Shown here in pieces: positions 8,705-24,164 of a DNA stretch of 32,427 nucleotides (position 1 is the first letter of the stretch; each line of letters begins with the position of its first letter). Both the position numbers and the translations under genes were made by a program. The notes under the pieces are model-generated. The model had not been told where the DNA came from. It made no database searches and was given only the letters and a program-made list of their open reading frames with translations. Origin of the DNA: an uncultured Archangium sp. (GTDB taxonomy: Bacteria > Myxococcota > Myxococcia > Myxococcales > Myxococcaceae); NCBI GenBank assembly GCA_903905455.1, contig CAIVGN010000216.1, positions 1-32,427 of the forward strand. Direction: 5' to 3'.

Positions 8705-8831
8705 GGCGGCCCCCCGATGCAACTGGGGGACCATTCCGGTACCTACGAGAATCAAATCCGGGGCGCAGAGTTTGCGGCAGAGCGCACCGGTTCCTCTCGC
8801 CAGCGCACAAAAGTGGGAGCATTGAACCGCC

Positions 8832-10697
8832 ATGGGGCGCACGCGCTTTACGCAGACCGGGGCCACCCAACCGCTGTCTTCGCTGCCGGCGTCGGCGTTG
8901 AGGGCGGTCCTTCGCGAGGGTTATTCGCGCGCGCAGCTCAAGCAGGACGTGGTGGCGGGGTTCCTCGTGGGGGTCATCGCGCTGCCGTTGGCGATGGCGC
9001 TGGCGATCGCCGTGGGGGTGCCTCCGCAGGCGGGCCTGTACACGGCGATCATCGCGGGCTTCGTGACGCCGCTGCTGGGCGGTTCGCGGCTGCAGGTGGT
9101 GGGGCCGACGGCGGCGTTCATCGTGGTGCTCGCGCCGCTCTACGCGCGCTACGGGCTGGGCGGGTTGCTGGTCAGCGGGCTGCTCTCGGGCGTGCTGCTC
9201 ATCGCCCTGGGCCTGCTGCGCCAGGGCAAGCTCATCGAGTTCATCCCCTTTCCCGTCACCACCGGCTTCACCGCGGGCATCGCGACGGTGATCGCCTTCC
9301 TGCAGGTGAAGGATCTCTTCGGGCTCGAGCTGGCGTCGTCACCGGAGCACTTCGCGGAGCGGCTGACCGCGATGTGGCAGGCGCGCGGCACGGCCAACGG
9401 GCACGAGCTGATGATCGGCCTGGTGACGCTGGTGGTGCTGCTGATCCCCCGCATTCCGCAGAGGCACCTCGCGCGGCTGCCGGCGCTGTTCACCCGGGTG
9501 CCCGCGCCGTTGCTCGCCTTGCCGCTGGGCGCGCTGGTGGCGTTCGCCCTCTCGCGCTTCGTGCCCGGGTTCCACGTGGACACCATCGGCACGCGCTTTC
9601 ACACGGTCATCGATGGGCTGACCATCGACGGCATTCCGCGCACCTTGCCTTCGTTCACCCTGCCGTGGAACGCGCCGGGGCCGGATGGGCAACCCCTGGG
9701 GCTGTCGTTGGAGATCGTGCGCCGCCTGCTCCCCAGCGCGTTCACCATCGCCATGCTCGCGGCCATCGAGTCGTTGCTCTCGGCAGTGGTGGCCGACGGC
9801 ATGGCGCGCACCCGGCACGACCCGGACTCGGAGTTGATCGCCCTGGGCGTGGGCAACCTGCTGACCCCGTTCTTCGGCGGCATCCCCGCCACCGGGGCCA
9901 TGGCCCGCACCGCGTCGAACTTCAAGTTCGGGGGCCGCTCGCCCCTCTCCGCCATGACGCACGCGGTGACGGTGCTGCTGGCCATCGTCATCCTCGCGCC
10001 GGTGCTGCAGTACCTGCCCATGGCGAGCCTCGCCGCGCTGCTGCTGCTGGTGGCGTGGAACATGTCGGAGGCCGAGCACTTCCTTCACACCCTGAAGGTC
10101 GCACCCAGGAGCGACGTGGCGGTGCTGCTGACGTGCTTCTTCCTCACCGTGCTCTTCGACATGGTCATCGCCGTGACCGCCGGCGTGCTGCTGGCCTCCG
10201 TGCTCTTCATCCGGCGCATGGCGACCACCACCGAGGGGCGCATGACGAAGGACCTCGAGGCGCTGCCGGGGCCGCTGCCGGAGGGGGTGGTGGTCTACGA
10301 CCTGGTGGGGCCGCTGTTCTTCGGCGCCGCCGAGCGGGCCATGGGCGCCATCCGGGCCATCGACTCCACGGTGCGGGTGCTGGTCTTCAACATGGAGCAG
10401 GTGCTCACCATCGACGTCACCGGCCTGGTGGCGCTCGAGGGCGTGCTCGAGGAGATGGAGCACCACGGCATCAAGGTGATGCTGGTGGGCGTGCCCCGGG
10501 CCTCCCGGGCGCTGTTCGATCGCGCGGGCCTGGTGGCCGTCGACGGCAAGCTGGCCTTCTGTGACGACCTCGAGGCCGCGTGGAAGCTGCTGGGCGCGCG
10601 CCTGCACCAGTACGAGCGCAAGCAGAAGGGGCCGGTGCGGGTGCACGTGCTCAACCGGCACAAGCTGGCGATTCGCAGGCCTCGGCACATGGGCTGA
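8832..10697 (+). CDS. SulP-family anion transporter with C-terminal STAS domain
   Basis: The 621-residue protein has a SulP membrane core at about 30-460. Hallmarks include a DVVAGFLVGVIALPLAMALAIA first helix, the GLYTAI re-entrant segment, VGPTAAF, and the GGIPATGAMARTASNFKFGGRSPLS signature. A cytoplasmic STAS domain at about 485-590 contains VLTIDVTGLVALEGVLEEM. The protein resembles the bacterial DauA/YchM type, which moves C4-dicarboxylates, more than named sulfate permeases. Bicarbonate or sulfate transport cannot be excluded. A short, very basic tail follows the STAS domain. ATG 8832 is the first start in frame after the divergent nifJ promoter region. The regulator gene begins 14 bp downstream, so the two are probably cotranscribed. 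Confidence 0.92.
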   Translation: MGRTRFTQTGATQPLSSLPASALRAVLREGYSRAQLKQDVVAGFLVGVIALPLAMALAIAVGVPPQAGLYTAIIAGFVTPLLGGSRLQVVGPTAAFIVVLAPLYARYGLGGLLVSGLLSGVLLIALGLLRQGKLIEFIPFPVTTGFTAGIATVIAFLQVKDLFGLELASSPEHFAERLTAMWQARGTANGHELMIGLVTLVVLLIPRIPQRHLARLPALFTRVPAPLLALPLGALVAFALSRFVPGFHVDTIGTRFHTVIDGLTIDGIPRTLPSFTLPWNAPGPDGQPLGLSLEIVRRLLPSAFTIAMLAAIESLLSAVVADGMARTRHDPDSELIALGVGNLLTPFFGGIPATGAMARTASNFKFGGRSPLSAMTHAVTVLLAIVILAPVLQYLPMASLAALLLLVAWNMSEAEHFLHTLKVAPRSDVAVLLTCFFLTVLFDMVIAVTAGVLLASVLFIRRMATTTEGRMTKDLEALPGPLPEGVVVYDLVGPLFFGAAERAMGAIRAIDSTVRVLVFNMEQVLTIDVTGLVALEGVLEEMEHHGIKVMLVGVPRASRALFDRAGLVAVDGKLAFCDDLEAAWKLLGARLHQYERKQKGPVRVHVLNRHKLAIRRPRHMG

Positions 10698-10711: not shown

Positions 10712-12187
10712 GTGACACGGCAAGTACGGTTGGAGCGTGAACGGCAGTTCCTGCGCGAGTTGACCCACTGGCCCCCGCGCGAGGCCGTCGGGGCCTGGCT
10801 GCGCATGGTGATGGCGTGGCTGGCCGAGGTGGTGCGGGCCGAACGCGCCTTCCTCGAGCTGTACCGCCGCGACGGAGGCACGCTCACCGTGTCCTTCCAG
10901 TGCACCACCGCCCAGGAAGAGGCGATTCGCGGCGTGACCGCCCAGGGCATCGTGGCCTCGGCCATCGCCTCGGGGCGCACCCTGCACCTGCCCTGGGCTT
11001 CGCTCGACGCCGGCGCCGACCAGCAGGCGCGCCAGGAGACCGTGCTCTGCGTGCCCATCTTCTCCGCGCAGCCCGGCACCCTGTACCTCGAGGGCCGCAC
11101 CGGGGCCGGCCCGTTCTCCGACGAAGACGTGCAGCTCACCGAGCACGTCGCGCAGTTCCTCCTGCCCATCATCGAGGGCTCGGAGCTGGCCGGCGAGGTG
11201 CGCGTGCCCGACCCGACCTCCGAGCTGCGCAAGCGCCTGCGCCTCGACTCGCTGGCCGGCCGCAGCCTGGCGCTGGCCCGCGTGTTCGAGCAGGTGGCCC
11301 TCGTCGCGCCGCTGGACATCACGGTGCTGCTCGCCGGCGACTCGGGCACCGGCAAGACCCAGCTGGCGCGCGCCATTCACGACAACTCACCGCGCCGCGA
11401 CGGCCCGTTCATCGAGCTCAACTGCGCCGCCATTCCCGAGACGCTCTTCGAGTCGGAGCTCTTCGGCACCCGCGACGGCGCCTTCACCGGCGCGCGCAAG
11501 CTGTCCGGGAAGATCGCCGCGGCCGAGGGGGGCACGCTCTTCCTCGACGAGGTCGGCGAGCTGCCGCTCTCCGCCCAGTCCAAGCTGCTCCAGCTGCTCC
11601 AGAGCAAGCAGTACTACGCGCTGGGGTCGACCACGGTGGTGACGGCGAACATCCGCATCCTCGCGGCGAGCAACGCGTCGCTGCCCGGGTTGGTGCAGGA
11701 CAAGCGCTTTCGCGAAGACCTGTATTACCGGCTCAACGCCTTCTCCATTCGCGTGCCCTCGCTCGCGGAGCGCCGCGAAGACATCGGCACCATTCTCGAC
11801 ACGCTGATGAAGCGCGCGTCGTTCGAGCACTCGCTGCCGGTGCTGCCCTTCGCCAACAGCTTCCGCATGGCCTGCGAGACCATGGAACTGCCGGGCAACG
11901 TGCGCCAGCTGCGCAGCCGCCTCGAGCACGCCCTGCTGCGCGCCGTCGCCGAGCGGGCCACGCAGATCGAAGCGCGGCACCTCGACGAAGACTCCGCGGG
12001 CGCGGGCAAGGGCGAGAACGCCGGCCTCGAGTCCTTCGCCGAGTCGACGCGCCAGTTCCAGCGCGAGCTGCTGCGGCGCGAGCTCGAGCGCTGCGAGTGG
12101 AACGTGCGCGAGGTGTCGCGGCGCCTCGATCTCACCCGCAGCCACGTCTACAACCTGATGCGCAGCTACGGCCTGCAGCGCGCCTGA
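10712..12187 (+). CDS. GAF-domain sigma-54-dependent transcriptional activator
   Basis: The 491-residue protein has an N-terminal GAF-like sensory region (about 20-155), a sigma-54-interacting AAA+ domain (about 180-400) and a C-terminal Fis-type helix-turn-helix (NVREVSRRLDLTRSHVYNLMRSYGL). The AAA+ domain has Walker A GDSGTGKT (209-216), the sigma-54 contact loop GAFTGA (256-261, intact), Walker B LFLDE (Asp279, Glu280) and the REDLYYRLN segment. It should hydrolyse ATP to open promoters bound by sigma-54 RNA polymerase. There is no response-regulator receiver, so the signal probably acts through the GAF region. GTG 10712 (MTRQVRLERERQFL) is preferred because it lies just after the SulP stop; the frame is open into the SulP gene. 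Its target promoters are not evident here. Confidence 0.92.
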   Translation: MTRQVRLERERQFLRELTHWPPREAVGAWLRMVMAWLAEVVRAERAFLELYRRDGGTLTVSFQCTTAQEEAIRGVTAQGIVASAIASGRTLHLPWASLDAGADQQARQETVLCVPIFSAQPGTLYLEGRTGAGPFSDEDVQLTEHVAQFLLPIIEGSELAGEVRVPDPTSELRKRLRLDSLAGRSLALARVFEQVALVAPLDITVLLAGDSGTGKTQLARAIHDNSPRRDGPFIELNCAAIPETLFESELFGTRDGAFTGARKLSGKIAAAEGGTLFLDEVGELPLSAQSKLLQLLQSKQYYALGSTTVVTANIRILAASNASLPGLVQDKRFREDLYYRLNAFSIRVPSLAERREDIGTILDTLMKRASFEHSLPVLPFANSFRMACETMELPGNVRQLRSRLEHALLRAVAERATQIEARHLDEDSAGAGKGENAGLESFAESTRQFQRELLRRELERCEWNVREVSRRLDLTRSHVYNLMRSYGLQRA

Positions 12188-12197
12188 CCTGCAGGTC
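12186..12197. repeat. 12-bp perfect palindrome between convergent genes
   Basis: GACCTGCAGGTC begins inside the stop codon of the sigma-54 activator and lies in the 24-bp gap before the convergent lipoprotein stop. It has no loop and no T-tract, so it is a weak candidate for an RNA terminator hairpin. Its function is unknown. Confidence 0.45.
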
Positions 12198-12211
12198 CCG
12201 CCAGCCGGGGC

Positions 12212-13345
12212 TCAGGGCGTGGGCGGCAACGCCGCGGCCCGCAAGCACGCGGCCTTCATCGTTTCGTCCTTGAGTCCCTCGCACAGGCGGCCGCCGGCGC
12301 CTTCGCCCACCAGGCGCAGCAGGCAGCCGTCGACCAGGCCGGAGGTGCCGAGCCGCCGGCACGCGCCCTCGGTCGTCGGCGTCGCGAGGCCCTCGTAGCA
12401 GGCCCGGGCCGCCAGCGCGCCGAGGGTCGAGCGTCGCGCGTCCAGCTCGAGGCGCCCGCAGATCTCCGCGCTGTGCAGCGCGATGCCCACGTCCCGCAGG
12501 CAGGCGTCGCGCAGCATCGGGCCGAGGTCACCCGCGCCCGAGATGCGCGCACAGGCGTCGGGGTCCCTTGTCACGCGCGCGAGGTGGTCGAGGCACTCGG
12601 CCCCTGCCGAGCCGCTGAGCCCCTCGCAGGGGGCCGGGCTGCGGCGCACGCCCGCGAGGCACCTGGCGAGCACCGGGGCCTCGCGCAACGTCTCGCAGGC
12701 CGCCTCGCCGCCCCCGTGCACCGCCGCGTTCACCACGCACGTGGCGTCGCCTTCGCACTTCGCCGTCTCGCCGCGCTCCGCCGCGATGCCCCGCTGGCAC
12801 GCCGGCTGGTCCGCGGTCCGCAGTCGCGCGCAGACCGCGACGTCCCCCGAGGACAGGGCGAGCATCTTCCAGCAGGGACCGCCCAGCGAACCCGCGCGAC
12901 TCGCCGTGGCCAGGCCCTCGCACACCGCGGCTCGTCTCGCCCAGGCGGGGTTCATCGCGGGCAGCACGGGCAGCGTGGGCACTTCACGCGGCCGGGCCTC
13001 GGCGTCGATCCGCCGCGCGTCGAAGGTGGCCATGCCGTTCTTGTCGGTGCCGTGCATCTCGCGCCCCGTGAGGGTGACGTCCTTCACGTCGCGATCCACG
13101 TCGACGAAGATGAGGCGCGCGCCGTTGGCCTGGCCCTTGACCCAGGAACTGGTGCCGAAGGTCGTCCACTCGAGCGATCCGCGGAAGTCGCCGTCGCCGT
13201 CGACCTCCGTGATGACGAGGGTGAAGGCGTACTCGTCGCCGAGGTAGCGCATGGTGCCGCCCCAGGTCGAAGGCGTCAGCGGCGTGGGCGCGGGGCGCTC
13301 GCGACACCCCGCGGCGAAGAGCAGGGCGAGCACCACGACGGCCAC
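12212..13345 (-). CDS. Cysteine-pair-repeat lipoprotein
   Basis: The 377-residue protein has a short lipoprotein signal (MAVVVLALLFAAGC, lipid Cys14). Residues about 28-120 form a beta-rich region (WGGTMRYLGDEYAFTLVITEV, then WTTFGTSSWVKGQ) that looks like a small lipid-binding or barrel-like domain. The remaining ~240 residues hold 18 cysteines arranged as nine successive pairs, often C-x-x-L/I...C with 10-20 residues between partners, suggesting disulphide-clamped helical hairpins in the periplasm or on the surface. I do not know a function. The start is GTG 13345, which gives an unusually short n-region lacking basic residues. The frame is open upstream with no ATG, GTG or TTG (the preceding codons read IRSLRSP, beginning at an ATT). 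It is divergent from the Tat lipoprotein gene across 201 bp. Confidence 0.75.
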   Translation of the reverse strand: MAVVVLALLFAAGCRERPAPTPLTPSTWGGTMRYLGDEYAFTLVITEVDGDGDFRGSLEWTTFGTSSWVKGQANGARLIFVDVDRDVKDVTLTGREMHGTDKNGMATFDARRIDAEARPREVPTLPVLPAMNPAWARRAAVCEGLATASRAGSLGGPCWKMLALSSGDVAVCARLRTADQPACQRGIAAERGETAKCEGDATCVVNAAVHGGGEAACETLREAPVLARCLAGVRRSPAPCEGLSGSAGAECLDHLARVTRDPDACARISGAGDLGPMLRDACLRDVGIALHSAEICGRLELDARRSTLGALAARACYEGLATPTTEGACRRLGTSGLVDGCLLRLVGEGAGGRLCEGLKDETMKAACLRAAALPPTP

Positions 13346-13546: not shown

Positions 13547-14629
13547 ATGCGCCGTCGATCATTCCTCAAGACAACCCTGGTCGGCGCGAGCGCGGTGGGC
13601 TCGGGCAGCTGCGCCCACCTCGGCAGCACGCTCACCTCCAGCAGCGCCGACGTGCTGGCCATGGTCGGCCAGCTCCGGGCGAACCTCGAGTACCTCGCCT
13701 CGCCTGGCGCGAAGGAGGGGCTCGCCGCGACGTTGCCGCCGGCCCGGCGTGCCCAGGGCGACGCCGCCGCAGATGAGCAGCTCTTCCTCGAGGGCGCGCA
13801 GACGCTGGTGCTCGCGGGCGCCTTTCATTCCATGTCCGAGGACGTGCGCGCGCACCCCGCGGTGCAGCAGTTGATGGGCGAGAAGCTGGCGATGATGAAC
13901 GCCACCGCGCAGCGCTTGAACCAGGTGGCCATCGCCACCACCCCCGAGGAGCGTCGCGCGCTCACGCAGCAGCTCAAGGAAGACCCCGCGGTCCTCGACG
14001 ACGCGGCCCAGCGCCTCGACGCAGAGGCCGTGCGGCTGGGGCTCACGCTCGAGGTGCGCGGGCGGTTGCGGGGGCTCTTCACCCAGGTCGGCGCGCGCCT
14101 GCGGCAGTCGGCGTCGCTCGCCATCGAGGAGTACTCGCACAAGGTGGCGCGCATCGAGGCCCGGCTGGCCGAGCCTGGCGCCTTCGAGCGTGAGTACGCC
14201 GCGCGCCTCGGGGCGCAGGCCTTCTGGGACTTCCAGGCGAGGCAGGAAGCCTACGTCGGCGCCTGGGCTGCGCAGTCCGGTGCGCCCTCGACGGGCCGGG
14301 TGCCGCTGCCCGCCGGGCCCCGCTCCGTCCCGCCGGCCCGGGTCGCCGCGCCGCGCCCCTCGGCGAAGGACGGCACCGGGGTCAAGGCGCCGAGTCGGAA
14401 CGACGGCTCGGTCGCGGTGCCCGTGGGCGGCATCCTGCTGGGCATCGGGGCGATCGCCGTCGCCGGGGGACTCGTCGCCGCGCTGAGCGGTGGAGGCGGC
14501 TTCGGTTGGGTCCCCGGGGCCATCGTGGTCACGGCCGGCGCGCTGCTGTTGATCGCCGGGTTCATCACGCTGCTCGTGGGGCTCAAGCGCCAGGAGCGCG
14601 CGCAGCAGGCGGCCCAGCGCCACCGCTGA
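13547..14629 (+). CDS. Tat-signal lipoprotein with C-terminal membrane hairpin, copy 1
   Basis: The 360-residue protein begins MRRRSFLKTTLVGASAVGSG and continues SCAHLG. This is a twin-arginine signal (RRxFLK) with lipid-type Cys22, so it should be exported folded and lipidated. Residues about 30-235 are mostly helical, rich in Ala, Leu, Glu and Gln, and contain FHSMSEDVRAHPAVQQLMGEK. A Pro/Ala-rich linker (about 245-290) precedes two strong hydrophobic helices (about 296-350) and a basic Arg/Gln tail. I recognise no family. A GGGAG Shine-Dalgarno (13537-13541) lies 5 nt before the ATG. The next gene is a paralog sharing the signal, the central motif and the terminal hairpin. Position at the head of the acyl-assembly genes suggests a role in handling or anchoring that pathway's product, which is inference. 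Confidence 0.85.
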   Translation: MRRRSFLKTTLVGASAVGSGSCAHLGSTLTSSSADVLAMVGQLRANLEYLASPGAKEGLAATLPPARRAQGDAAADEQLFLEGAQTLVLAGAFHSMSEDVRAHPAVQQLMGEKLAMMNATAQRLNQVAIATTPEERRALTQQLKEDPAVLDDAAQRLDAEAVRLGLTLEVRGRLRGLFTQVGARLRQSASLAIEEYSHKVARIEARLAEPGAFEREYAARLGAQAFWDFQARQEAYVGAWAAQSGAPSTGRVPLPAGPRSVPPARVAAPRPSAKDGTGVKAPSRNDGSVAVPVGGILLGIGAIAVAGGLVAALSGGGGFGWVPGAIVVTAGALLLIAGFITLLVGLKRQERAQQAAQRHR

Positions 14630-14687
14630 ACTCCGCACCGCCGCCGTCCCCTCGTCGCCCTGAGCCCGTCGAACTGGAGTTCCCTGC

Positions 14688-15641
14688 ATGCACCGTCGAG
14701 CCTTCCTCAAGACAGCCCTCGTCGGCGCCGGCACGGTCGGCGCCGAGGGCTGCGCGCACCTGGGCGGCGGCCTGCTGGTGGGCCACGAGGAGATCGTCGC
14801 GCTGGTGAAGCAGCTCGAGGCGGGCCTCGCGCACGTCGGTTCGCCCGGCGCGAAGGCGTCGTTCACCGCCGGCCTCCCCCTCGCGCACGCCGCCCACGAC
14901 GAGCAGGTGTTCCGCGACGCCTCGCGTACCCTGTTGTTGGCGGGCGCCTTTCACTCGATGACCGAAGAGACGCGCGCGCACCCGGCGGTGCAGCAGTTGA
15001 TGCGCTCGAACCTCGGCGCGATGGGTGGCGCCACGCAGCAACTGCACGACATCGCGCTGGCCACCACGCCCGACCAGCGCCGCGAGTTGACGAACCGTCT
15101 CAGGGAAGACCCCGCGGCCCTCGACGGGGTGGCCGAGCGCATGGACGCGGAGGCCGTCTCGATGGGTGTCTCGCTGGAGCAGCGCACCCGGCTGCGCGCG
15201 CTCTTTCACCAGGTCGGCAACCGCATGAAGCAGTCCGCGCCGCTCGCGCTCCAAGAGTACGGACAGAAGGTCGCGAAGCTGAAGGCGCGCCTCGCCGAGC
15301 CGCGCGACTTCGAGCGGGAGCTCATCGCGCGCATGGGCGAGCGGGCCTTCTGGGACTTCGAGGCGCGGCAGCGCGGCTTCACCGAGGCGTGGACGCGCCA
15401 GGCGCCCGCGGCGATCGTCGACGCCTCTCCTTCGGCGCCCAGGCGCGACCCGGACCGGGGCATCGCCACCCTCACCTCGGGGGGCGTGATGATGGGCATC
15501 GGCCTGCTCATCGGTGGGGGCGGCATGCTGGTCGTCGCCTCGGGCTCGATCGCCGGCGCCTTCATCGCGACCGCGGGGGGCCTGCTGTTCCTCGCGGGCC
15601 TCATCACCCTCATCGTGGGCCTCGCCCAGCGAGCCGGCTGA
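14688..15641 (+). CDS. Tat-signal lipoprotein with C-terminal membrane hairpin, copy 2
   Basis: The 317-residue paralog of the preceding gene starts MHRRAFLKTALVGAGTVGAE and continues GCAHLG, again a Tat motif with lipid-type Cys22. Shared blocks include TLLLAGAFHSMTEETRAHPA followed by VQQLM, ALATTPDQRRELT, LREDPAALDG, LARLAEPRDFERE and AFWDFEARQ. The linker before the two C-terminal hydrophobic helices (about 262-314) is shorter than in copy 1, which explains the length difference. A CTGGAG ribosome site lies 8 nt before the ATG. The gap to copy 1 is 58 bp and to the ketosynthase gene 11 bp. The pair therefore looks like the product of a tandem duplication within one transcription unit. The function is unknown. 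Confidence 0.85.
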   Translation: MHRRAFLKTALVGAGTVGAEGCAHLGGGLLVGHEEIVALVKQLEAGLAHVGSPGAKASFTAGLPLAHAAHDEQVFRDASRTLLLAGAFHSMTEETRAHPAVQQLMRSNLGAMGGATQQLHDIALATTPDQRRELTNRLREDPAALDGVAERMDAEAVSMGVSLEQRTRLRALFHQVGNRMKQSAPLALQEYGQKVAKLKARLAEPRDFERELIARMGERAFWDFEARQRGFTEAWTRQAPAAIVDASPSAPRRDPDRGIATLTSGGVMMGIGLLIGGGGMLVVASGSIAGAFIATAGGLLFLAGLITLIVGLAQRAG

Positions 15642-15652
15642 AGGAGCACGTG

Positions 15653-17536
15653 ATGCGCGTCGCGGTGACTGGCCTCGGGGTGGTGAGCGCGTTCGGCGTC
15701 GGTGCGGCGGCCTTGCGCCTCGCGCTGCAGGAGGGGCGGGGGGGCCTTTCGCCGGTGCGCCACTTCGACACCTCGCCGTACCCCTCGCGCCTGGCGGGCA
15801 GCGTGCCGGGCTTCGATGGCGGCCCCCAGCGGAAGAACGCGGCCTTCGAGTTCGCGGTGCGCGCCGGCACCGAGGCCCTCGCGCAGGCCCGACCCCGGGG
15901 CTCGGTGGCCCTGGTGCTGGGCACCAGCATCGGGGTGACCGACGGCACGCACCACGCGCTGGCCGAGCGGCTCGCCGGGGCGCTGGGGCTCACCGGGCCG
16001 GTCATCGCCATCACCACCGCGTGCTGCTCGTCGAACAACGCGCTGGGCCTGGGCGCCGAGTTGCTCGAGGCCGGCGACGTCGACGCGGTGCTCGCCGGCG
16101 GCACCGATCAGATCACCGAGGAGATGTTCGCCGGCTTCTCCATGCTCGGCGCGCTGAGCGCGGGGCCGTGCGCGCCGTTCAGCCTGCCCACGGGCACCAC
16201 CCTGGGCGAAGGCGCGGGCTTCGTGGTGCTCGAGCGCGCCGGCGAGGCCGCGGCCCGCGGGGCTCGAACCCTGTCGTGGGTGCTGGGCGAGGCGCTGTCG
16301 TGCGACGCGATGCACGAGGTCGCCCCCGACGCGACGGGCCGGGGCGTGGCGCGCTGCGTGGGCAGTGCGCTCCACCAGGCGCAGGTCGCGCCGGCCGCCG
16401 TCGACTACGTGAACGCCCACGGCACGGGCACCGCGCACAACGACGCCGCGGAATGGAAGGGCCTCACCACCGCGCTGGGTCGTGACTCGGTGCTGGTGAG
16501 CTCGACCAAGGGCACGCTGGGCCACGCCCAGGGGGCCGCGGGCGTGCTGGAGATCATCGCCAGCCTCCTGTGTCTCGAAGACGGCCGCGTACCCTCGACG
16601 CAGAACTTCGCCGGGCCGCGCAACCGCTGCCCCGGCGATCCCGTGGGCCAGGCCACGCCGCGCGCCGCGACGGTGCAGCGCTGGGTGGCGACCAACAGCG
16701 CGTTCTGGGGCGCCAACGCGTCGTTGGTGTTCTCCACCCAGGAAGTGCCCACCGCTCCCGCGGCCCGGGTGCGGCCGCGCATCGTGGTCGCCGGCTTCGG
16801 GAGCGCCGCGGGCACCGCGGAGCTGCAGCGCACGCTTCCCCGGGTCGATCTCTCGGCCCTCGATCTCCCCTCGCGCCTGGTGACCTGCGCCGTGGCCGAG
16901 GCGCTGGGTGGACTGGGCCCCGTCGTGAAGGGCGAGCTGCGCGAAGGGCTGGGGTTGTTCCTCGGCGCGGTGGCGCCGTCGCGCGACGCGCGCACCCGCT
17001 TCGACGCGTCCATCGAGGAGCGGGGGATGGCGAAGCTGTCCGCCGAGGCCTTCACGCGCATGGTGACCAGCGCCATCGGTGGCGCCTGCGCGCGGCTGCT
17101 GGGGCTGCGCGGGCCGTTCACCACGCTGACCTCCGGCTTCGGCAGCGGCCTCGTCGCGCTCGCCTGCGCCGCGCGGTACCTCGAGCTGCACGACGACGTG
17201 CGCGGCGTGGTGGTCGCCAGCGTCGACGAGCGCGAAGAACCGGGCGCGACCGGGCGGGCGTGCGCGGTGCTCCTCGCGCGCGAAGGTGCGTTGCCCGTGA
17301 CCGGCCCCCTGCTCGAGGTCTGCCTCGCCGGCGCAGGCCACCTGGCCCAGGCGCTCGCCGCGCTCGGGGCCCCGCCGCCGGCCTCGACGGACGACGCCTC
17401 GGTGAGCGGCTCGCTCGAGCGCCTCGGTGGCGTGCTCCAGGCGCTGCGCAGCTCGGGCGGCAGCCGCGTCGTCGGCCAGTCCCTCGGCGCGACGAGCTGC
17501 GCCGTTCGCCTCACCTGTTCCCCGGAGAACCCATGA
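15653..17536 (+). CDS. Beta-ketoacyl-ACP synthase fused to a degenerate KS-like domain
   Basis: The 627-residue protein has two parts. Residues 1-365 are a complete FabF-type ketosynthase with active-site Cys124 (ITTACCSSNNALG), His256 (NAHGTGTAHND), and Lys286 and His291 (KGTLGHAQGAAG). It should catalyse decarboxylative condensation of malonyl-ACP with an acyl chain. Residues about 377-627 start again like a ketosynthase (RIVVAGFGS) and show the nucleophile region LTSGFGSGLVALA, where Phe496 sits in place of Cys. They end in a Gly-rich segment GQSLGATSCAVRL but lack the His motifs. This half resembles the short 'ketoacyl-synt_2'/chain-length-factor-like proteins seen in aryl polyene clusters, so the gene may be a natural KS-CLF fusion. 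AAGGAG (15641-15646) lies 6 nt before ATG 15653. Its stop overlaps the ACP start. Confidence 0.9.
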   Translation: MRVAVTGLGVVSAFGVGAAALRLALQEGRGGLSPVRHFDTSPYPSRLAGSVPGFDGGPQRKNAAFEFAVRAGTEALAQARPRGSVALVLGTSIGVTDGTHHALAERLAGALGLTGPVIAITTACCSSNNALGLGAELLEAGDVDAVLAGGTDQITEEMFAGFSMLGALSAGPCAPFSLPTGTTLGEGAGFVVLERAGEAAARGARTLSWVLGEALSCDAMHEVAPDATGRGVARCVGSALHQAQVAPAAVDYVNAHGTGTAHNDAAEWKGLTTALGRDSVLVSSTKGTLGHAQGAAGVLEIIASLLCLEDGRVPSTQNFAGPRNRCPGDPVGQATPRAATVQRWVATNSAFWGANASLVFSTQEVPTAPAARVRPRIVVAGFGSAAGTAELQRTLPRVDLSALDLPSRLVTCAVAEALGGLGPVVKGELREGLGLFLGAVAPSRDARTRFDASIEERGMAKLSAEAFTRMVTSAIGGACARLLGLRGPFTTLTSGFGSGLVALACAARYLELHDDVRGVVVASVDEREEPGATGRACAVLLAREGALPVTGPLLEVCLAGAGHLAQALAALGAPPPASTDDASVSGSLERLGGVLQALRSSGGSRVVGQSLGATSCAVRLTCSPENP

Positions 17537-17823
17537 ATCCCCAGACCAGCGCCTACCTCGAACGACGCCGCCAGGTGCTCGCCGAGGTGCGAGACATCCT
17601 CATCACCCGCCTCAAGGTGGAGCGCGCGCCGGAGCACATCGATCCGGACGCCTTCCTCTTCGGCACCGGCCTGGGCCTCGACTCGGTGGACGCGGTGGAG
17701 TTGGTCGTCGCGCTCGAGCAGCGCCTGGGCCTGAAGCTCCCGGAAGGAGCGCGCACGCTGCGCTCGCTGCGCACGGTGGGCACGGTCATCGACCAGGTGC
17801 TCGGCGTGGAGGAGGCACCATGA
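17533..17823 (+). CDS. Acyl carrier protein
   Basis: The 96-residue protein has a carrier-protein four-helix pattern. The phosphopantetheine attachment site is Ser51 in GLGLDSVDAVELVVALEQRLG. The DSVD variant with the following AVEL resembles carriers of dedicated aryl polyene-like and other secondary acyl pathways rather than the DSLD of the main fatty acid ACP. The GGAG site at 17524-17527 is 5 nt before the ATG, which overlaps the ketosynthase stop (ATGA). The stop in turn overlaps the next start (ATGA). It should carry the growing acyl chain between the enzymes encoded around it. A phosphopantetheinyl transferase is not seen in the window. Confidence 0.93.
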   Translation: MNPQTSAYLERRRQVLAEVRDILITRLKVERAPEHIDPDAFLFGTGLGLDSVDAVELVVALEQRLGLKLPEGARTLRSLRTVGTVIDQVLGVEEAP

Positions 17824-18836
17824 GCCTCGAGCTGGAGCTGCAGACGCTGCGGACCCGCGTGGGCCTGGTGGAGAATCGCCACCTCGAGGTGTTTCGTGTC
17901 GAGGGTGCGCGGGCCTTCGAGGCCGTCGACGACGCCGTGCCCCAGCGGCTCTTCCTGCAGGACGCGCAGATCACCCAGACGCTGCTGCTGGCGGACGACG
18001 CCACCATCGTGGCCGACCTGCAGATCGCCCGCGACGACGAGGCCTTCTTCCTCCTGTGCGAGGCGCGCCCCGGGCTCTCGGCCGAGGCGCTGCTGCGCGA
18101 GCGACTGGGGACGAACGAGGTGACGGTGCAGCCCCTGTCGGCTACCCACGCGGTGTGGTCGGTGCATGGCCCCTGGGCGTGGGAGTTGCTGGGCGAAGCG
18201 CTGGGCCAGGAGATCGTCGGCCAGCCCTACCTTTCGTTGCAGCACGTCGCCGGCGTCACCTGCTTCCGCGGCGGGAAGACCGGGGAGTTCGGCTACGACC
18301 TCCTGGTGCCCCGGGCCGAGGTGGAGCCCACGATCACCCGCCTGCGCGAGCTGGGTGTGCGCTACGAGCTGGGCCCGCTGTCCCTCGAGGCGCTCGACCA
18401 CGCGGCCCTCGAGAACTGGTTCTTCAGCGTGCGCTTCGACGCGCTGTGGCCGTACACGCCGGTGGAGCTGCAGCTCCAGTGGCGGCTGTGGCACGAGAAG
18501 CACGCGTACCGGGGGGCCTCGGCCGTGGCCCAGCAGCAGGCGGGCGGGGCCGCTCGACGCCTGACGGTGCTCCACGCCGACGCGCCGATGGTGGCCCAGG
18601 CCCCGGTGATGCTCGAGGGCGAGCGCATCGGTCACGTGCTGCGCTCGGCGCGGCACTCGCTGGGGAAGGGGCACGTGGCCTGGGCGATGCTCGACGCGCC
18701 GGTGGCCATGGCGGGGTTGCGGGTGCAGGCCGGTGACGTCGCGGCGCGCACCGTCTCTCCGCCCACGGTGCAGAACGAGAGCCTGGGCATCGACCCGAAC
18801 AAGCACAGCTTCCGCTACGGCCGGAGGGTCGGGTGA
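17820..18836 (+). CDS. GcvT-like aminomethyltransferase-family protein
   Basis: The 338-residue protein has the overall pattern of the glycine cleavage T-protein family. An N-terminal domain has HLEVFRVEGARAFE and a strand ATIVADLQIAR whose Asp66 matches the conserved catalytic acidic position. A central segment CFRGGKTGEFGYDLLVP corresponds to the family's 'R.GYTGE.GYEI..P'. A C-terminal barrel-like part includes a G-rich late segment (LGKGHVAWAMLD). The KGC[FY].GQE motif of YgfZ is not present. Family members bind folate and move one-carbon or methyl groups. A GGAGGAGG ribosome site precedes ATG 17820. Overlapping stop/start codons lock it between ACP and ketoreductase, so its substrate may be ACP-bound. 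That is inference, and a non-catalytic role is possible. Confidence 0.82.
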   Translation: MSLELELQTLRTRVGLVENRHLEVFRVEGARAFEAVDDAVPQRLFLQDAQITQTLLLADDATIVADLQIARDDEAFFLLCEARPGLSAEALLRERLGTNEVTVQPLSATHAVWSVHGPWAWELLGEALGQEIVGQPYLSLQHVAGVTCFRGGKTGEFGYDLLVPRAEVEPTITRLRELGVRYELGPLSLEALDHAALENWFFSVRFDALWPYTPVELQLQWRLWHEKHAYRGASAVAQQQAGGAARRLTVLHADAPMVAQAPVMLEGERIGHVLRSARHSLGKGHVAWAMLDAPVAMAGLRVQAGDVAARTVSPPTVQNESLGIDPNKHSFRYGRRVG

Positions 18837-19582
18837 GCGGCCGGTTCGCAGATCGCACCGTCGTCGTCTCGGGCGCGTCGCGGGGCCTGGGCCGGGACTT
18901 CGCCGTGGCCTTCGGCCGCGAGCAGGCGTGGGTCGCGGTGGGCTTTCGCGAGCGCGTCGAGCAGGCCGAGCAGACGCTCGCGCTGGTGCGCCAGGCCGGC
19001 GGCGACGGCGTGGTGCTGCCGCTCGACGTCACCCGGGCGGCGTCGGTGAACGCGGCCGTGGCCGAGCTGCAGGCCGCGCGGGGGGGCGTGGACGTGCTGG
19101 TCAACAACGCCGCGGTGGTGCGCGACGAGCTGTTCGCGCTCTCCAGTGACGAGGCCTTCCTCGAGACGCTGGAGACCAACCTCACGGGCGCGGTGCGGCT
19201 CGCGCGCGCGCTGGTGCGACCGATGGTGGCGAAGCGGGGGGGCGCCATCATCAACGTCGCTTCAGTCTCAGCGTTGCGCGCGAGCCCGGGGCAGTCGAGC
19301 TACGCGGCGGCCAAGGGCGGGCTGCTGTCGTTCAGCCACACCCTCGCCGCGGAGCTCGCGCCCTCGGGGGTGAGGGTCAACGCGGTGGTGCCGGGGTTGA
19401 TCGCCACGGGCATGACCATGCGGGTCGACGCGCGGCTGCGGGAGAGCCGGACGAAGTGCATCCCCGCGGGGCGCATGGGCACGGGCGACGAGGTGGCCGA
19501 GGTGGTGCTCTTTCTCGCCTCCGACGCCGCCCGCTACGTCTACGGCCAGGCCCTGGTCGTCGACGGGGGGCTGAGCCTGTGA
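18833..19582 (+). CDS. FabG-like SDR, 3-ketoacyl-ACP reductase
   Basis: The 249-residue classical short-chain dehydrogenase has the cofactor motif SGASRGLG (13-20), NNAA at 91-94, structural Asn116, and the catalytic Ser144, Tyr157 and Lys161 (YAAAK). The C-terminus GQALVVDGGLSL is typical of FabG. It should reduce 3-ketoacyl-ACP to 3-hydroxyacyl-ACP with NADPH. The GTG start (18833) overlaps the stop of the GcvT-like gene, and GGAGG (18823-18827) lies 5 nt upstream. The stop overlaps the next GTG. Gene position fits the reductive step of the local acyl assembly line. Confidence 0.93.
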   Translation: MSGRFADRTVVVSGASRGLGRDFAVAFGREQAWVAVGFRERVEQAEQTLALVRQAGGDGVVLPLDVTRAASVNAAVAELQAARGGVDVLVNNAAVVRDELFALSSDEAFLETLETNLTGAVRLARALVRPMVAKRGGAIINVASVSALRASPGQSSYAAAKGGLLSFSHTLAAELAPSGVRVNAVVPGLIATGMTMRVDARLRESRTKCIPAGRMGTGDEVAEVVLFLASDAARYVYGQALVVDGGLSL

Positions 19583-20433
19583 GCGCCACCTGGGCCGTGG
19601 TCTTCCCGGGGCAGGCCGAGCGCGACGTCGCGGCTCAGCTCGCGAAGCTCTTCGCCCGCGAGCCGGCCTGGGCGGCGCTGCTCGAGGGGACCACGTCGGT
19701 CGCCGCATCGGAGTGGCTCGCGCAGGGTGGGCGCGCGCTCGAGCGCACCGAGCTGTACCAGCCGGCGATGGTGGCGCTCTGCCTCGACGCCTGGGCCCGC
19801 TTCTCGGCCACGCACGAGGTGGCCTTCGTCGCGGGACACTCGCTGGGTGAGGTGACGGCCTGGGCCGTGGTGCACGTGGTCGGCGCGCAGCGGGCGCTGG
19901 AGCTCGCGTGGCTTCGGGGCGTGGGCATGGCCGCGATCGCCCGCGAGGTGGGCGGAGGCCTGGCCCTGGTGGCGCGCTTTGAGCTGGACGAGGTGCTCGC
20001 GCTGGCCCACGCCGCGGGAGGCCGGGCCTGCCTCGCGCTGGAGAACTCGCGGGACACGGTCGTGCTCTCGGGTGACGCGTGCGCGCTGAGGGCCCTGGGC
20101 CACCGGGTGCGCAGGCTGCCGGGGCAGGGGCCGTGGCACGGGCCGTGGCTCGCGCCGGTCGAGCGGGCGCTCCGGGCTGCCCTGCTCTCGGTGTACCGGG
20201 CCCCCTCGCCGACGTGGGTGGGGGAGGGAGATCTCGCCGCCCGGGTTTGCGAGCCGGTGCGCTGGGTGGCGACCGTCGACGAGCTCTGCGCGCGCGGCGT
20301 GACGGACATCGCCATCGCGGGGCCGGGCCGCGCGCAGCGCGCGTTGCTGCGCGAGCTGGTTCCCCCTTCCGTGAACTTGCACCTCGTCGACGACGACGCC
20401 CCCCTGACTGGAGCCGTTCATGCCTCCCCTTGA
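19579..20433 (+). CDS. FabD-like malonyl-CoA:ACP acyltransferase
   Basis: The 284-residue acyltransferase-fold protein begins TWAVVFPGQ, the usual FabD opening. It has the nucleophile motif GHSLGE with Ser88, an upstream 'YQPAMVALCLDAW' segment corresponding to QPA, and a PWHGPWLAPV segment providing the second catalytic His as in FHSPLM. It is slightly shorter than housekeeping FabD. The extender-selectivity segment is not a clean FabD match, so malonyl specificity is likely but unproven. The GTG start at 19579 overlaps the reductase stop, and its last 14 bp overlap the dehydratase gene. It should load the extender unit onto the adjacent ACP. Confidence 0.87.
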   Translation: MSATWAVVFPGQAERDVAAQLAKLFAREPAWAALLEGTTSVAASEWLAQGGRALERTELYQPAMVALCLDAWARFSATHEVAFVAGHSLGEVTAWAVVHVVGAQRALELAWLRGVGMAAIAREVGGGLALVARFELDEVLALAHAAGGRACLALENSRDTVVLSGDACALRALGHRVRRLPGQGPWHGPWLAPVERALRAALLSVYRAPSPTWVGEGDLAARVCEPVRWVATVDELCARGVTDIAIAGPGRAQRALLRELVPPSVNLHLVDDDAPLTGAVHASP

Positions 20434-21037
20434 GTCCCTGCCCCTGGGCGCCGAGGTCATCGGCCTCTTCCTCAAGCAGCGCCGCCCGCTGCTGATGCTC
20501 GACGGCATCGAGGCGTACTCGTGGCGCGAGCCGCGGCCGACGCTGAAGACCTTCAAGAACGTCTCGGCGAACGAGCCCATCTTCGACGGTCACTTCCCCG
20601 ACCTCATGCTGTGGCCCGGCATCTACACGCTCGAGGGCCTGGGCCAGTCGTGCCACCTGCTGGGCATGCTCAACGGCCTGCTCGAGTTCGCCGAGGGGCG
20701 CGGGGTGTCGCGCGCGGACACCCTGAAGAACCTCGTCAACCTGCACCGGCTCAATCGCTTCGAGCCCGTGACGCGCTCGCCCGAACAGGAGGCGGTGTTG
20801 CGCGCGCTCGCCGACGAGAAGGCGGCGGCCCCGGCGGTGACCGCGGCCCTCGACGTGAAGTTCCTCGCGCCGGTCTTCGCTGGAGATCGCCTCGAGTTCA
20901 CCGTCGAGTTGGTCAAGCGTTTCGACTCGTTGATGCGCTTCGACGTGCGCGCCGAGGTGCGGGGCCGGGTGGTGCTCAAGGGCACGCACACCGGTTCGGT
21001 GGGTTTGTCACTCGCAGGCAGAGAGGTCTCGCCATGA
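20420..21037 (+). CDS. FabZ/FabA-like hot-dog 3-hydroxyacyl-ACP dehydratase
   Basis: The 205-residue protein opens with RRPLLMLDGIEAY, equivalent to 'hRyPfLLVDri' of FabZ. The catalytic pair is present: His58 in NEPIFDGHFPD and Glu72 in WPGIYTLEGLGQ. A segment of about 45 residues (roughly 84-130, EFAEGRGVSRADTLKNLVNL onwards) is extra compared with compact FabZ. The hot-dog resumes at VKFLAPVFAGDRLEFTVEL. It should dehydrate 3-hydroxyacyl-ACP to trans-2-enoyl-ACP; no sign of isomerase function can be read from the sequence. A GGAG site lies 7 nt before ATG 20420. The gene overlaps both neighbours, by 14 bp upstream and by ATGA downstream. Confidence 0.88.
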   Translation: MPPLESLPLGAEVIGLFLKQRRPLLMLDGIEAYSWREPRPTLKTFKNVSANEPIFDGHFPDLMLWPGIYTLEGLGQSCHLLGMLNGLLEFAEGRGVSRADTLKNLVNLHRLNRFEPVTRSPEQEAVLRALADEKAAAPAVTAALDVKFLAPVFAGDRLEFTVELVKRFDSLMRFDVRAEVRGRVVLKGTHTGSVGLSLAGREVSP

Positions 21038-22551
21038 GCCGCACGCACCACCTGGTCCTGTTCGCCGCGCTCGTCTCTGGCTGTGGCGCAAGTCGCTACG
21101 CCGCGCGGCCCGTCACCATCGAGCGGCCCGGTTGCGCGGCCCCTTTCACGGTGATCTCGACGGTCGATGGCCGCGTCGCGGGCGAGGACAACGCCATGGA
21201 GGACGTCCTGGAAGACACCGTGGTCTTCAGCCGTGATGGGCGCCACACGGCCTACGTCGCGCGCCAGGGCACGTCGTGGTTCGTGGTGCACGACGGCGAG
21301 CGCTCCAAGGCGTGGCACGGCATCGGCTTCCTTCGCTACGGCGAGGTGGGGCCGATCTACGCGGCGCAGTTCGGCGAGCGCTGGTGCGTGCAGCGGGGCG
21401 CCGCGGACGACCCGTGCTTCGGCACCATCTATGAAGACTCGCTGACGGTGGCGGGGCCGTCGGTGGCCTACGTCGCGCGGTCGGCGGACGCCTGGGCTCC
21501 AGCGGCCGCGGCGTCGTCGCTGGTCATCGACGGGGTAGTGGCCCTGCGCGCCGCCGAACTCTCCCTGGTGCGCGCGAGCGCCGACGGCAAGACCATCGGC
21601 GCGGTGGAGCGCGCGGTCGCCCCGGAGGTCGCGGACAAGCTCTACGTCAACGCCGCGTTGGTGGTGAGCGCGCCGCACCTCACCGACTGGACCCCAAGCG
21701 GAGGGGTCACCTGGGTCGCCACGCGCGACGCGGGCCTCTTCGTCGAGTCGGCCCGGCGCACGTGGGGACCGTACGAGAAGGTGTCCCGGCTGGTGTCGCG
21801 CGGAGACCACGTGGCCTTCGTGGGCAGCATGGCGCAGGGCCGCGAGGTGGTGCTCGATGGCGTGAAGGTGGGCCCCTTCGCCGACGTCGCGGTCCCCTCG
21901 CTGGTGCTCAGCCCCTCGGGTGACGACTTCGCGGTGGTGGTGAGGCTCGTGGGAGGGGAGATCAAGATCGCCACGCGGCGCAGCGTGCTCACCCCGGTGG
22001 AAGGCAGCCCGGTCACCGGCGTCTCGGAGTTGGTGTTCTCCCCCGACGGCGTCGCGCTGGGCGCCCTCGCGGCGGCGGAGAACCGGCAGTTCACCATCTC
22101 GCTCTACGGCGCGGCCACGGGCGAGCGGCTGTGGTCGCAGGGCGGCTTTGGTGACGCGAGCGACCTCGCGGTGGCAGCGCAGGGGGCGCGGGTCCTGGCG
22201 CTGACCCGAACCGGGGCCGTGACCTCGGTGTTCGCGCACTGCCCGAAGTGCGACGGGCCCCCGAAGCTGACCGCCGTGCGCGCCATGCCCGGGACGCTGG
22301 TGACGGACCCGGCCCTGTCGGCCTGGGGCGTGGTCGCCGGTGAAGGTCCGGTGAACGTGCCCTCGGAGCGGCGCATGATCATCGCCCGCTCGTGGGGCGT
22401 CGGGCCCCTCGACTTCGACGCGCGCCTCTTCGGCGCCGCGGTCACGCGCTTCGAGCGGCAGGGCACGCTGGACCCCGTCGTCGCCGCGTGGCGCAGCCAG
22501 GTGCGCTCGCAGCTCACGCGACACCTCGGTTGCCCCGCGCCCGCCCCGTGA
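21034..22551 (+). CDS. Lipoprotein with predicted beta-propeller body
   Basis: The 505-residue protein has a lipoprotein signal peptide (MSRTHHLVLFAALVSGC, lipid Cys17). The body shows recurring short beta segments such as VVFSRDGRHTAYVAR, LVRASADGKTIGAV, LVLSPSGDDFAVVVRL and LVFSPDGVALGALA. This 'SPDG...' rhythm is typical of WD40/TolB-like beta-propellers. There are few catalytic-looking motifs. A CPKCDG pair near residues 407-410 could form a disulphide or bind metal. A GAGAGG site precedes ATG 21034, which overlaps the dehydratase stop; the stop overlaps the next GTG. Its place between enzymes suggests it handles or senses the pathway product outside the cytoplasm. No function is assigned. 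Confidence 0.78.
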   Translation: MSRTHHLVLFAALVSGCGASRYAARPVTIERPGCAAPFTVISTVDGRVAGEDNAMEDVLEDTVVFSRDGRHTAYVARQGTSWFVVHDGERSKAWHGIGFLRYGEVGPIYAAQFGERWCVQRGAADDPCFGTIYEDSLTVAGPSVAYVARSADAWAPAAAASSLVIDGVVALRAAELSLVRASADGKTIGAVERAVAPEVADKLYVNAALVVSAPHLTDWTPSGGVTWVATRDAGLFVESARRTWGPYEKVSRLVSRGDHVAFVGSMAQGREVVLDGVKVGPFADVAVPSLVLSPSGDDFAVVVRLVGGEIKIATRRSVLTPVEGSPVTGVSELVFSPDGVALGALAAAENRQFTISLYGAATGERLWSQGGFGDASDLAVAAQGARVLALTRTGAVTSVFAHCPKCDGPPKLTAVRAMPGTLVTDPALSAWGVVAGEGPVNVPSERRMIIARSWGVGPLDFDARLFGAAVTRFERQGTLDPVVAAWRSQVRSQLTRHLGCPAPAP

Positions 22552-24164
22552 CGCTCGACGCCGACGCGGTGGTCATCGGCTCGGGCCTCGGTGGGCTCTC
22601 GGCGGCGTTGGGCCTCGCCCAGGCGGGGCAGCGGGTGCTGCTCCTCGAGCGCCACGAGGTGCCGGGTGGCTACAGCCAGAGCTTCCACGTCGACGGGTTC
22701 CGCTTCAGCCCGGGCGTGCACTACGTGGGAGAGCTGCACGAGGGCGGGCTGGTGCGGCGGCTCTTCGAGGGGCTGGGCGCGGCGCCCGACTTCTTCGAGT
22801 TGAACCGCGAACGCGTCGACAGCTGCGTCCTGGGCGAGGAGCGCTTCGAGCACTGCGCGGGGCGCGAGGCGTTGACGGCCCGCTTCGCCGCGCGCTTCCC
22901 GAGCGAGGCCCGGGGCGTGGCGGCGGTGCTGGAGACCATCGCGTCCCTGCACGCGCGCCTCACGTCGAGCGTCGAGACGCACCGGGCCCGGGACTTCCAG
23001 CGGTGGAGCGAGCGCGACCGCTTCTTCGCCCTGGCGCCGCTCGACACGCTCTTGAAGCAGTGGGTGCGCGACCCGCTGTGCCGCGCGTTCCTCACGGTGC
23101 ACTGCACCAACTACGGGCTGCCGCCTTCGCTGGCGCCGCTGGCGGTGCACGCCACGAACCAGGGCCACTACCTGGAAGGCGGGTTCCACCCCCGGGGCGG
23201 CGGCGCGGGGCTGGTGAAGTCGCTGCTGGCTCCCTTGCGCCAGCGAGGGGGCCAGGTGTTGCTCGAGACGGGCGTGGCGCGGGTGCTCGTGGAGCGGGGC
23301 CGCGCGGTGGGCGTGCGCCTGGCGGACGGCCGCGAGCTGCGCAGCAAGGTGGTCGTCTCCAACGCCGACCCGCTCGTGACGTGGACGAAGCTGGTGGGCC
23401 TGGAGCACGCGCCGCCCGCCGTGCGCGCGCGCCTCGAACGGGTGCGCTGGTCGATGCCGGCGGTGAGCCTCTTCCTGGTGGTGGACGCCGACGTCCGCGC
23501 GCTCGGGCTCGACTCGGGGAACCTGTGGATCACGGGGAGCGACCAGGAAGGGCTCCACCGCGCGGCGAATGACGAGCGGCCCTGGGGCGATGCGTCGCCC
23601 GCGTTCTTCCTCTCGGTCAGCACCTTGAAGGACCCCACGCACTTCGATGGGCGACACCACGTGCTCGAGGTCACCGCGGCCATCGGCTGGCACGTCTTCG
23701 CGCGCTGGGCGGCGGACCCCGAGGGGCGGCACGCGCCGGGCTACCTCGCGCTGAAGCAGCAGCTCGAGGCGCGGCTGCTCGAGGCGGTGGAGCGCGCGGT
23801 GCCGGGGCTGACGGCGCGCGTGGTGGCGAAGACCCTGGCCACGCCGCTGACCAGTGAGCGCTACGTGGGCGTGACCCGGGGCGCGCAGTACGGCGTGGAG
23901 AAGTCGAGAGACCTGTTCGGGCCCCATGCGTTCCCGGTCTCCGGCGAGCTCGAGGGCCTGGCGTTGTGCGGCGCGAGCACCCTGGGGCACGGGGTGCTGG
24001 GCGCGGTGCTCTCGGGCGTGGCGGCGGCGTCGAGCGTGCTCGAGGTGCCGCTCTCCGGCGTGCTGACCGCGCGGGACGCGAAGGTGCGCACCTGGCCCGC
24101 GGAGGATGCGTCGTGCTGGCCCGGGGAGCTCCAGGCGGCCGTCTCGCGGCGGAGCAGGGACTGA
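22548..24164 (+). CDS. FAD-dependent phytoene desaturase / retinol saturase-family oxidoreductase
   Basis: The 538-residue flavoprotein begins with a dinucleotide-binding motif (VVIGSGLGGLSAALGLAQAG, then VLLLERHEVPGGYSQSF), with Glu34 as the likely ribose contact. The RFSPGVHYVGEL block is typical of the carotenoid isomerase/retinol saturase branch (COG1233-like). A C-terminal FAD-contact segment LALCGASTLGHGVLGAVLSG closes the fold. Members saturate, desaturate or isomerise conjugated polyenes. The GTG start (22548) overlaps the lipoprotein stop (GTGA). It is the last gene of the run. With no enoyl reductase in the operon, this enzyme is the obvious candidate to change the double-bond pattern of the product, which is inference. 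Confidence 0.88.
   Translation: MTLDADAVVIGSGLGGLSAALGLAQAGQRVLLLERHEVPGGYSQSFHVDGFRFSPGVHYVGELHEGGLVRRLFEGLGAAPDFFELNRERVDSCVLGEERFEHCAGREALTARFAARFPSEARGVAAVLETIASLHARLTSSVETHRARDFQRWSERDRFFALAPLDTLLKQWVRDPLCRAFLTVHCTNYGLPPSLAPLAVHATNQGHYLEGGFHPRGGGAGLVKSLLAPLRQRGGQVLLETGVARVLVERGRAVGVRLADGRELRSKVVVSNADPLVTWTKLVGLEHAPPAVRARLERVRWSMPAVSLFLVVDADVRALGLDSGNLWITGSDQEGLHRAANDERPWGDASPAFFLSVSTLKDPTHFDGRHHVLEVTAAIGWHVFARWAADPEGRHAPGYLALKQQLEARLLEAVERAVPGLTARVVAKTLATPLTSERYVGVTRGAQYGVEKSRDLFGPHAFPVSGELEGLALCGASTLGHGVLGAVLSGVAAASSVLEVPLSGVLTARDAKVRTWPAEDASCWPGELQAAVSRRSRD

Follow-up and report, generated by a model that had tools for sequence, protein, structure and literature searches.

The window analysed here is a complete contig of 32,427 bases from the 8.6 Mb assembly of an uncultured Archangium sp. 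and carries an operon for acyl chain assembly in which a GcvT-like protein is encoded next to an acyl carrier protein (ACP). Eight genes, all on the + strand, follow one another with overlaps of 4, 4, 4, 4, 14, 4 and 4 bp. They encode a ketosynthase (KS) fused to a second ketosynthase half that has no Cys and resembles a chain-length factor (CLF) (15653-17536), an ACP (17533-17823; PP-binding, E 1.5e-9), the GcvT-like protein (17820-18836; GCV_T, E 2.9e-26), a FabG-type ketoreductase (KR) of the short-chain dehydrogenase/reductase (SDR) family (18833-19582; SDR/KR, E 6e-60), a FabD/MdcH-type acyltransferase (AT; 19579-20433; Acyl_transf_1, E 1e-8; MdcH/FabD-like, E 6e-26), a FabZ/FabA-like hot-dog dehydratase (DH; 20420-21037; FabZ, E 1e-19), a beta-propeller lipoprotein (21034-22551) and a FAD oxidoreductase of the CRTISO/CrtI family (22548-24164; phytoene-desaturase/carotenoid-isomerase type, E 7e-42). 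The frames and junctions were verified at single-base level; together with domain searches, this bore out the original prediction of eight co-directional genes overlapping at every junction, and the gene functions it had named agreed with the domain searches except in details.

The limits of the unit differ slightly from those of these eight genes. Upstream, g2 (14688-15641, + strand) encodes a lipoprotein with a twin-arginine (Tat)-type signal, an all-helical domain and a C-terminal pair of membrane helices, and its stop codon is separated from the KS start by 11 bp. It is preceded by g1 (13547-14629, + strand), whose product is a paralogue with 52% identity in the alignment; in both proteins a lipobox Cys comes after a twin-arginine-like motif, and the C-terminus has a membrane segment. 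Presence of the genes was tabulated for Myxococcota-type loci as the union of profile and tblastn matches, with only assessable loci as denominator. Since homologues of g2 were found upstream of the KS in 30 of 31 loci, mostly immediately ahead of it, g2 is a core member. The KS was present in 31/33, the ACP in 34/34, the KR in 30/34, the AT in 25/31, the DH in 24/28 and the propeller protein in 16/23 loci, and the order g2-KS-ACP-GcvT-KR-AT-DH-propeller recurs among them. The flavoprotein gene was found in 5/17 loci at varying positions (upstream in L036 and L064). Thus, g1 and g2 belong to the unit, and the terminal flavoprotein gene, which had been stressed originally, is a recurrent but optional member; the eight genes are real and co-directional as predicted, but the unit was delimited slightly wrongly. 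The recurrence of KS-ACP-GcvT-KR-AT-DH across many Myxococcota argues against an arrangement by chance; it supports the view that the genes serve one pathway and rules out that their homologues are scattered and unlinked in relatives. Scans for promoters and terminators scored the real sequence no better than shuffles.

The enzymes of the assembly line appear complete. The KS (ketoacyl-synt, E 9e-32 in the Pfam/NCBIfam search) has the intact catalytic motifs TACCSS, HGTGT and GHAQGA, and the second half, which reads TLTSGFGSGL and lacks the Cys, is CLF-like. Intact motifs were also found in the AT (GHSLGE), the DH (HFP, LEGLGQ), the KR (NVAS, YAAAK) and the ACP (GLGLDSV). An enoyl reductase was not found in the operon by domain searches. 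The best match of the KS by sequence among solved structures in the PDB was 6kxd, entitled 'Ketosynthase', barely ahead of FabF chains; we take 6kxd to be Iga11-Iga12, the ishigamide polyene KS-CLF.

The GcvT-like protein belongs to the PF01571 fold family but misses the threshold for functional GcvT (TIGR00528, equivalog; 52.6 bits, cut-off 235.85). In a tree of 58 sequences, one branch with a support of 99/97 splits an ACP-linked group, to which the protein belongs, from ordinary GcvT; an ordinary-clade GcvT is also encoded in the same genome (contig C29; L004 in the tree). A profile of the GcvT-like protein scored family members of its own phylum with 391-475 bits, compared to at most 205 bits for ordinary GcvT. 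A scan of contigs with the pattern GKTGE[FY]GY revealed 56 loci, 52 of which have an ACP gene no more than 400 bp upstream; in L044 it lies slightly further upstream and the other three loci are at contig ends. In loci found only by profile, an ACP gene adjoins in 18/18. In a control comparison, an ACP gene was present within 1.5 kb in 30/30 family loci but in 0/53 loci of ordinary GcvT, whereas a lipoyl-type motif, searched with a regular expression as a rough measure, was present in 0/30 and 22/52, respectively. The glycine-cleavage carrier has, therefore, probably been replaced by an ACP as partner of this GcvT-like enzyme.

The active site was compared in 57 sequences and in the 18 profile-only loci, with residue numbers following the T. 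maritima T-protein. The catalytic Asp96, which corresponds to Asp66 in the window protein, is Asp or Glu in 55/57 and Asp in 18/18, and Glu191 is invariant (57/57 and 18/18). Unlike in the T-protein, Asn112 is replaced by Glu (54/57 plus 2 Asp; 18/18), Tyr188 by Lys in most sequences including the window protein, and nearly all members lack Arg227 (Leu in the window protein). Lys188 had first been drawn from loci selected with GKTGE[FY]GY, which is circular; it was, therefore, rechecked in the profile-only loci and found in 17/18. Because the member from Priestia megaterium keeps Tyr at position 188, Glu112 is the better mark of the clade. The T-protein pocket seems to be retained but remodelled, and binding of a folate is plausible. 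The separate clade, the strict ACP pairing and the Glu in place of Asn112 favour action on the ACP-bound chain, which is the most likely role of the protein.

The family is patchily spread. Profile searches found it in 4/195 sampled genomes of its own phylum and in 3/388, 1/297 and 17/168 genomes of three further phyla. As labelled by record titles, the ACP-linked clade occurs in eight phyla, namely Myxococcota, Gemmatimonadetes, Pseudomonadota, Verrucomicrobia (Opitutales), Planctomycetes, Fibrobacter/Chitinispirillum, Acidobacteria (Bryobacterales) and, on a plasmid, Bacillota. The latter, plasmid pBMG6 of P. megaterium, encodes AT-KR-ACP-FabZ-GcvT-like-KS in one operon together with a thioesterase, a phosphopantetheinyl transferase (PPTase) and a major facilitator superfamily transporter, but no lipoproteins such as those of the window are annotated, and we know of no product of this cluster. 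On P. megaterium plasmids, it forms a compact SDR-thioesterase-PPTase-AT-KR-ACP-FabZ-GcvT-like-KS arrangement (L160, 7822-15849). Plasmids of Enterobacterales have AcpS-SDR-FabZ-ACP-GcvT-like-KS-KS with LolA-like and ATP-binding cassette (ABC) genes. The GcvT proteins of the P. megaterium and Enterobacterales clusters fall on the ACP-linked side of the tree; the P. megaterium sequence has a long branch and its placement is less sure.

Several of these loci have features of their own. In Enterobacter bugandensis (L158, 8270-28724) and Rahnella sikkimica (L159, 9599-28706), the ACP-GcvT-like-KS cluster directly follows a two-partner secretion pair of a filamentous-haemagglutinin-type TpsA and a ShlB-type TpsB, and similar GcvT-like genes were seen in records of Proteus mirabilis and E. 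coli. In Paraburkholderia (L081, 7244-18687), Competibacteraceae (L071, 5932-17368) and Bryobacterales (L080, 9681-18654), ACP and GcvT-like genes sit in more extensive clusters, along with several ketosynthases and two acyltransferases; the continuation of L081 (L153) encodes a LolCE-type permease. One genome (G004) contains two different versions of the operon (contigs C205 and C322). The culturable Polyangium fumosum DSM 14668 (L045) also carries the operon. In L032, an open reading frame between AT and DH (10766-12349) had no domain match and an odd codon composition and was not counted as a pathway gene.

The lipoproteins and the flavoprotein were characterised by structure models and profiles. 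The predicted model of g2 (predicted local distance difference test (pLDDT) 74) is all-helical and had no PDB match at E≤0.001. The propeller protein, which has an LVSGC lipobox, had no Pfam match, but the structure predicted for it (pLDDT 86.5) gave beta-propellers as matches (E 1.9e-10). The flavoprotein missed the curated thresholds of both the carotenoid isomerase family TIGR02730 (carot_isom; 144 bits, cut-off 587) and TIGR02734 (122 bits, cut-off 238). A ladderane-type cluster, considered because of the phytoene-desaturase-like gene, was dropped since this gene is optional; the 2009 ladderane paper, moreover, names no aminomethyltransferase or glycine-cleavage protein. Other flavoprotein-like genes were also seen: a GltD/adrenodoxin-reductase-like one near the Tat-type lipoprotein gene in two sister clusters of the same genus (L031, 1878-3296; L032, 1906-3273), and a second FAD-protein-like family of approximately 527 amino acids in three loci (L040, 927-2510; L068, 4814-6358; L053), divergent beside the Tat-type lipoprotein gene in L040 and L068.

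A precedent for the enzyme set is the cyl operon of Streptococcus agalactiae (group B Streptococcus), which directs synthesis of the polyene granadaene and suffices for its formation in Lactococcus (PMC6985545). All core lipid enzymes of cyl operons (S. agalactiae, Acidipropionibacterium, Lactococcus), that is ACP, malonyl transferase, ketosynthase, ketoreductase and dehydratase, are present in the window (PMC6985545, PMC6920887), and its GcvT-like gene is a putative counterpart of the GcvT-like cylF. Every cyl operon encodes CylF, an aminomethyltransferase homologue; the authors called its role previously unresolved and proposed that it supplies ammonia for ornithine (PMC6985545). Unlike in cyl, KS and CLF are one protein in the window, the host is Gram-negative, and two kinds of lipoprotein plus the optional FAD protein are found instead of recognisable CylE, CylA/B, CylJ and CylK. 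No further acyltransferase-type gene was recognised in 13547-24164 or in the scanned neighbours as a candidate for CylE, which every cyl operon has for acylation and release, and no CylA-type ABC exporter was seen among the operon genes or scanned neighbours. Since CylE, an ABC exporter and a glycosyltransferase were not recognised in it, the operon is not a cyl operon by defining genes.

Aryl polyene and flexirubin clusters likewise make conjugated polyenes with a type II KS-CLF, KR, DH and ACP, all of which are present in the window. Relatives of the GcvT-like gene were found in aryl-polyene-type clusters of Fibrobacter and Opitutales, which also encode an aromatic amino acid lyase, LolA, MMPL, a FabA/ApeI-like protein and a lipid acyltransferase. 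In contrast, the window operon has no aromatic ammonia lyase, AMP ligase, LolA, MMPL or lipid acyltransferase gene, and domain searches of operon and neighbours found no ammonia lyase or AMP ligase for supply of an aryl starter; it is, therefore, not an aryl polyene cluster. With the highly reducing type II polyketide synthase of ishigamide it shares the KS-CLF logic, and it differs by the fusion of KS and CLF and by the GcvT-like protein and the lipoproteins, which are not known from the iga cluster. In an aryl-polyene-type cluster of a Fibrobacter metagenome-assembled genome, a single frame of 1247 amino acids (L078, 5860-9603) combines a B12-binding radical SAM domain with a ketosynthase and a second ketosynthase half. 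Searching the literature for links of GcvT or aminomethyltransferases to polyketides or aryl polyenes turned up no relevant work. A paper on the sponge swf polyketide synthase has no bearing on GcvT. In the literature searched, no Gram-negative variant combining Tat-type with propeller lipoproteins came up. The original view of an undescribed pathway has to be narrowed to a Gram-negative variant, with a putative GcvT step, of what is probably a known type of polyene synthase. A GcvT-like protein in such a set, which the original view did not count among standard clusters, has precedents: cyl operons all contain CylF (PMC6985545), and relatives from the clade of the window protein lie in the Fibrobacter and Opitutales clusters.

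Taken together, we consider it fairly probable that the operon specifies a type II polyene synthase like that of cyl (granadaene), iterative and highly reducing, with a GcvT-like protein acting on the ACP or its chain. This is suggested by a full complement of KS-CLF, ACP, KR, AT and DH whose motifs are intact, with no enoyl reductase in the operon, by 6kxd as top match of the KS, by the conserved gene order, by the strict ACP pairing of the GcvT-like clade and its retained Glu191 and acidic residue 96, by granadaene synthesis with the same enzyme core plus CylF (PMC6985545) and by the ACP-GcvT relatives in aryl-polyene-type clusters. The AT would put malonyl onto the dedicated ACP, the KS-CLF fusion would elongate the chain, and KR and DH would turn each keto group into a double bond; judging from the gene content, the chain would remain conjugated, and a polyunsaturated acyl-ACP, as originally predicted, is the probable product. 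The GcvT-like protein would work on the ACP or the bound chain, with the ACP in place of the lipoyl H-protein, most likely in a folate-dependent one-carbon transfer, which is the weakest step of the model. At the cell envelope, the Tat-type and propeller lipoproteins would accept the product or present it, and the FAD protein may further desaturate or isomerise the polyene in this genome. Some points weigh against this reading. To our knowledge, no product of any Myxococcota member has been described; CylE and an export ABC transporter were not seen in the operon, which leaves release and export unexplained; an enoyl reductase could act in trans; and the replacement of Arg227 and Tyr188 means that folate binding is not assured. 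Moreover, cylF mutants are only mildly affected (PMC6920887), and the GcvT-like protein is, therefore, probably dispensable for chain building.

The mild phenotype of cylF mutants (PMC6920887), the universal ACP adjacency and the partial loss of the T-protein pocket would also fit a GcvT fold without catalytic function whose binding to the ACP or to the reactive polyene tunes the length of the chain or protects it. We regard this as possible but doubtful; with an acidic residue at position 96 and Glu191 kept almost always and a new, nearly fixed Glu112, the protein seems to have an active site maintained by selection. It is unlikely that the genes form a common accessory fatty acid synthase that serves membrane or storage lipids and has GcvT as passenger: KR, DH, AT and ACP resemble those of fatty acid synthases, but the Cys-less CLF-like half, the missing enoyl reductase, the two conserved lipoproteins, the patchy spread and the strict ACP-GcvT pairing speak against it. 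Release of ammonia by a glycine-type cleavage for a head group such as ornithine was proposed for CylF by Armistead et al. on the grounds that some cyl operons of actinobacteria also contain ornithine cyclodeaminase (PMC6985545). For the window protein we consider it improbable, since the clade is separate, pairs with an ACP and not with a lipoyl carrier, has a nearly fixed Glu in place of Asn112 and occurs here without an ornithine gene in the operon by domain searches, and the genome has an ordinary-clade GcvT as well; action on the ACP-bound chain is favoured instead. That this is a genuine cyl operon with a granadaene-like ornithine polyene as product is very improbable, because the six enzyme classes in common (PMC6985545) are not accompanied in the operon by any recognised CylE-like, ornithine, glycosyltransferase or ABC transporter gene.

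Elsewhere in the window (4154-8866) and unlinked to the operon, a pyruvate:ferredoxin/flavodoxin oxidoreductase gene adjoins a dihydroorotate-dehydrogenase-like gene.

In sum, the polyene synthase reading makes the operon a Gram-negative relative of a known pathway type, in which the ACP-GcvT pairing is of more interest than the flavoprotein. The pathway type and the pairing of such an assembly line with a GcvT-like enzyme were already known from cyl; new is the GcvT-like protein as a separate, ACP-paired clade across phyla. It is a tentative thought that in an old clade T-protein chemistry moved from the lipoyl H-protein to a phosphopantetheinyl ACP, and that folate-dependent addition or removal of one-carbon units on ACP-bound polyenes in at least eight phyla would be common to cyl-type, aryl-polyene-type and multi-ketosynthase clusters. 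The role of the GcvT-like protein is reduced to the simple question of whether it binds folate and acts on acyl-ACP, and the family suggests that cultured organisms, among them Polyangium fumosum, have polyene lipids yet to be explored.

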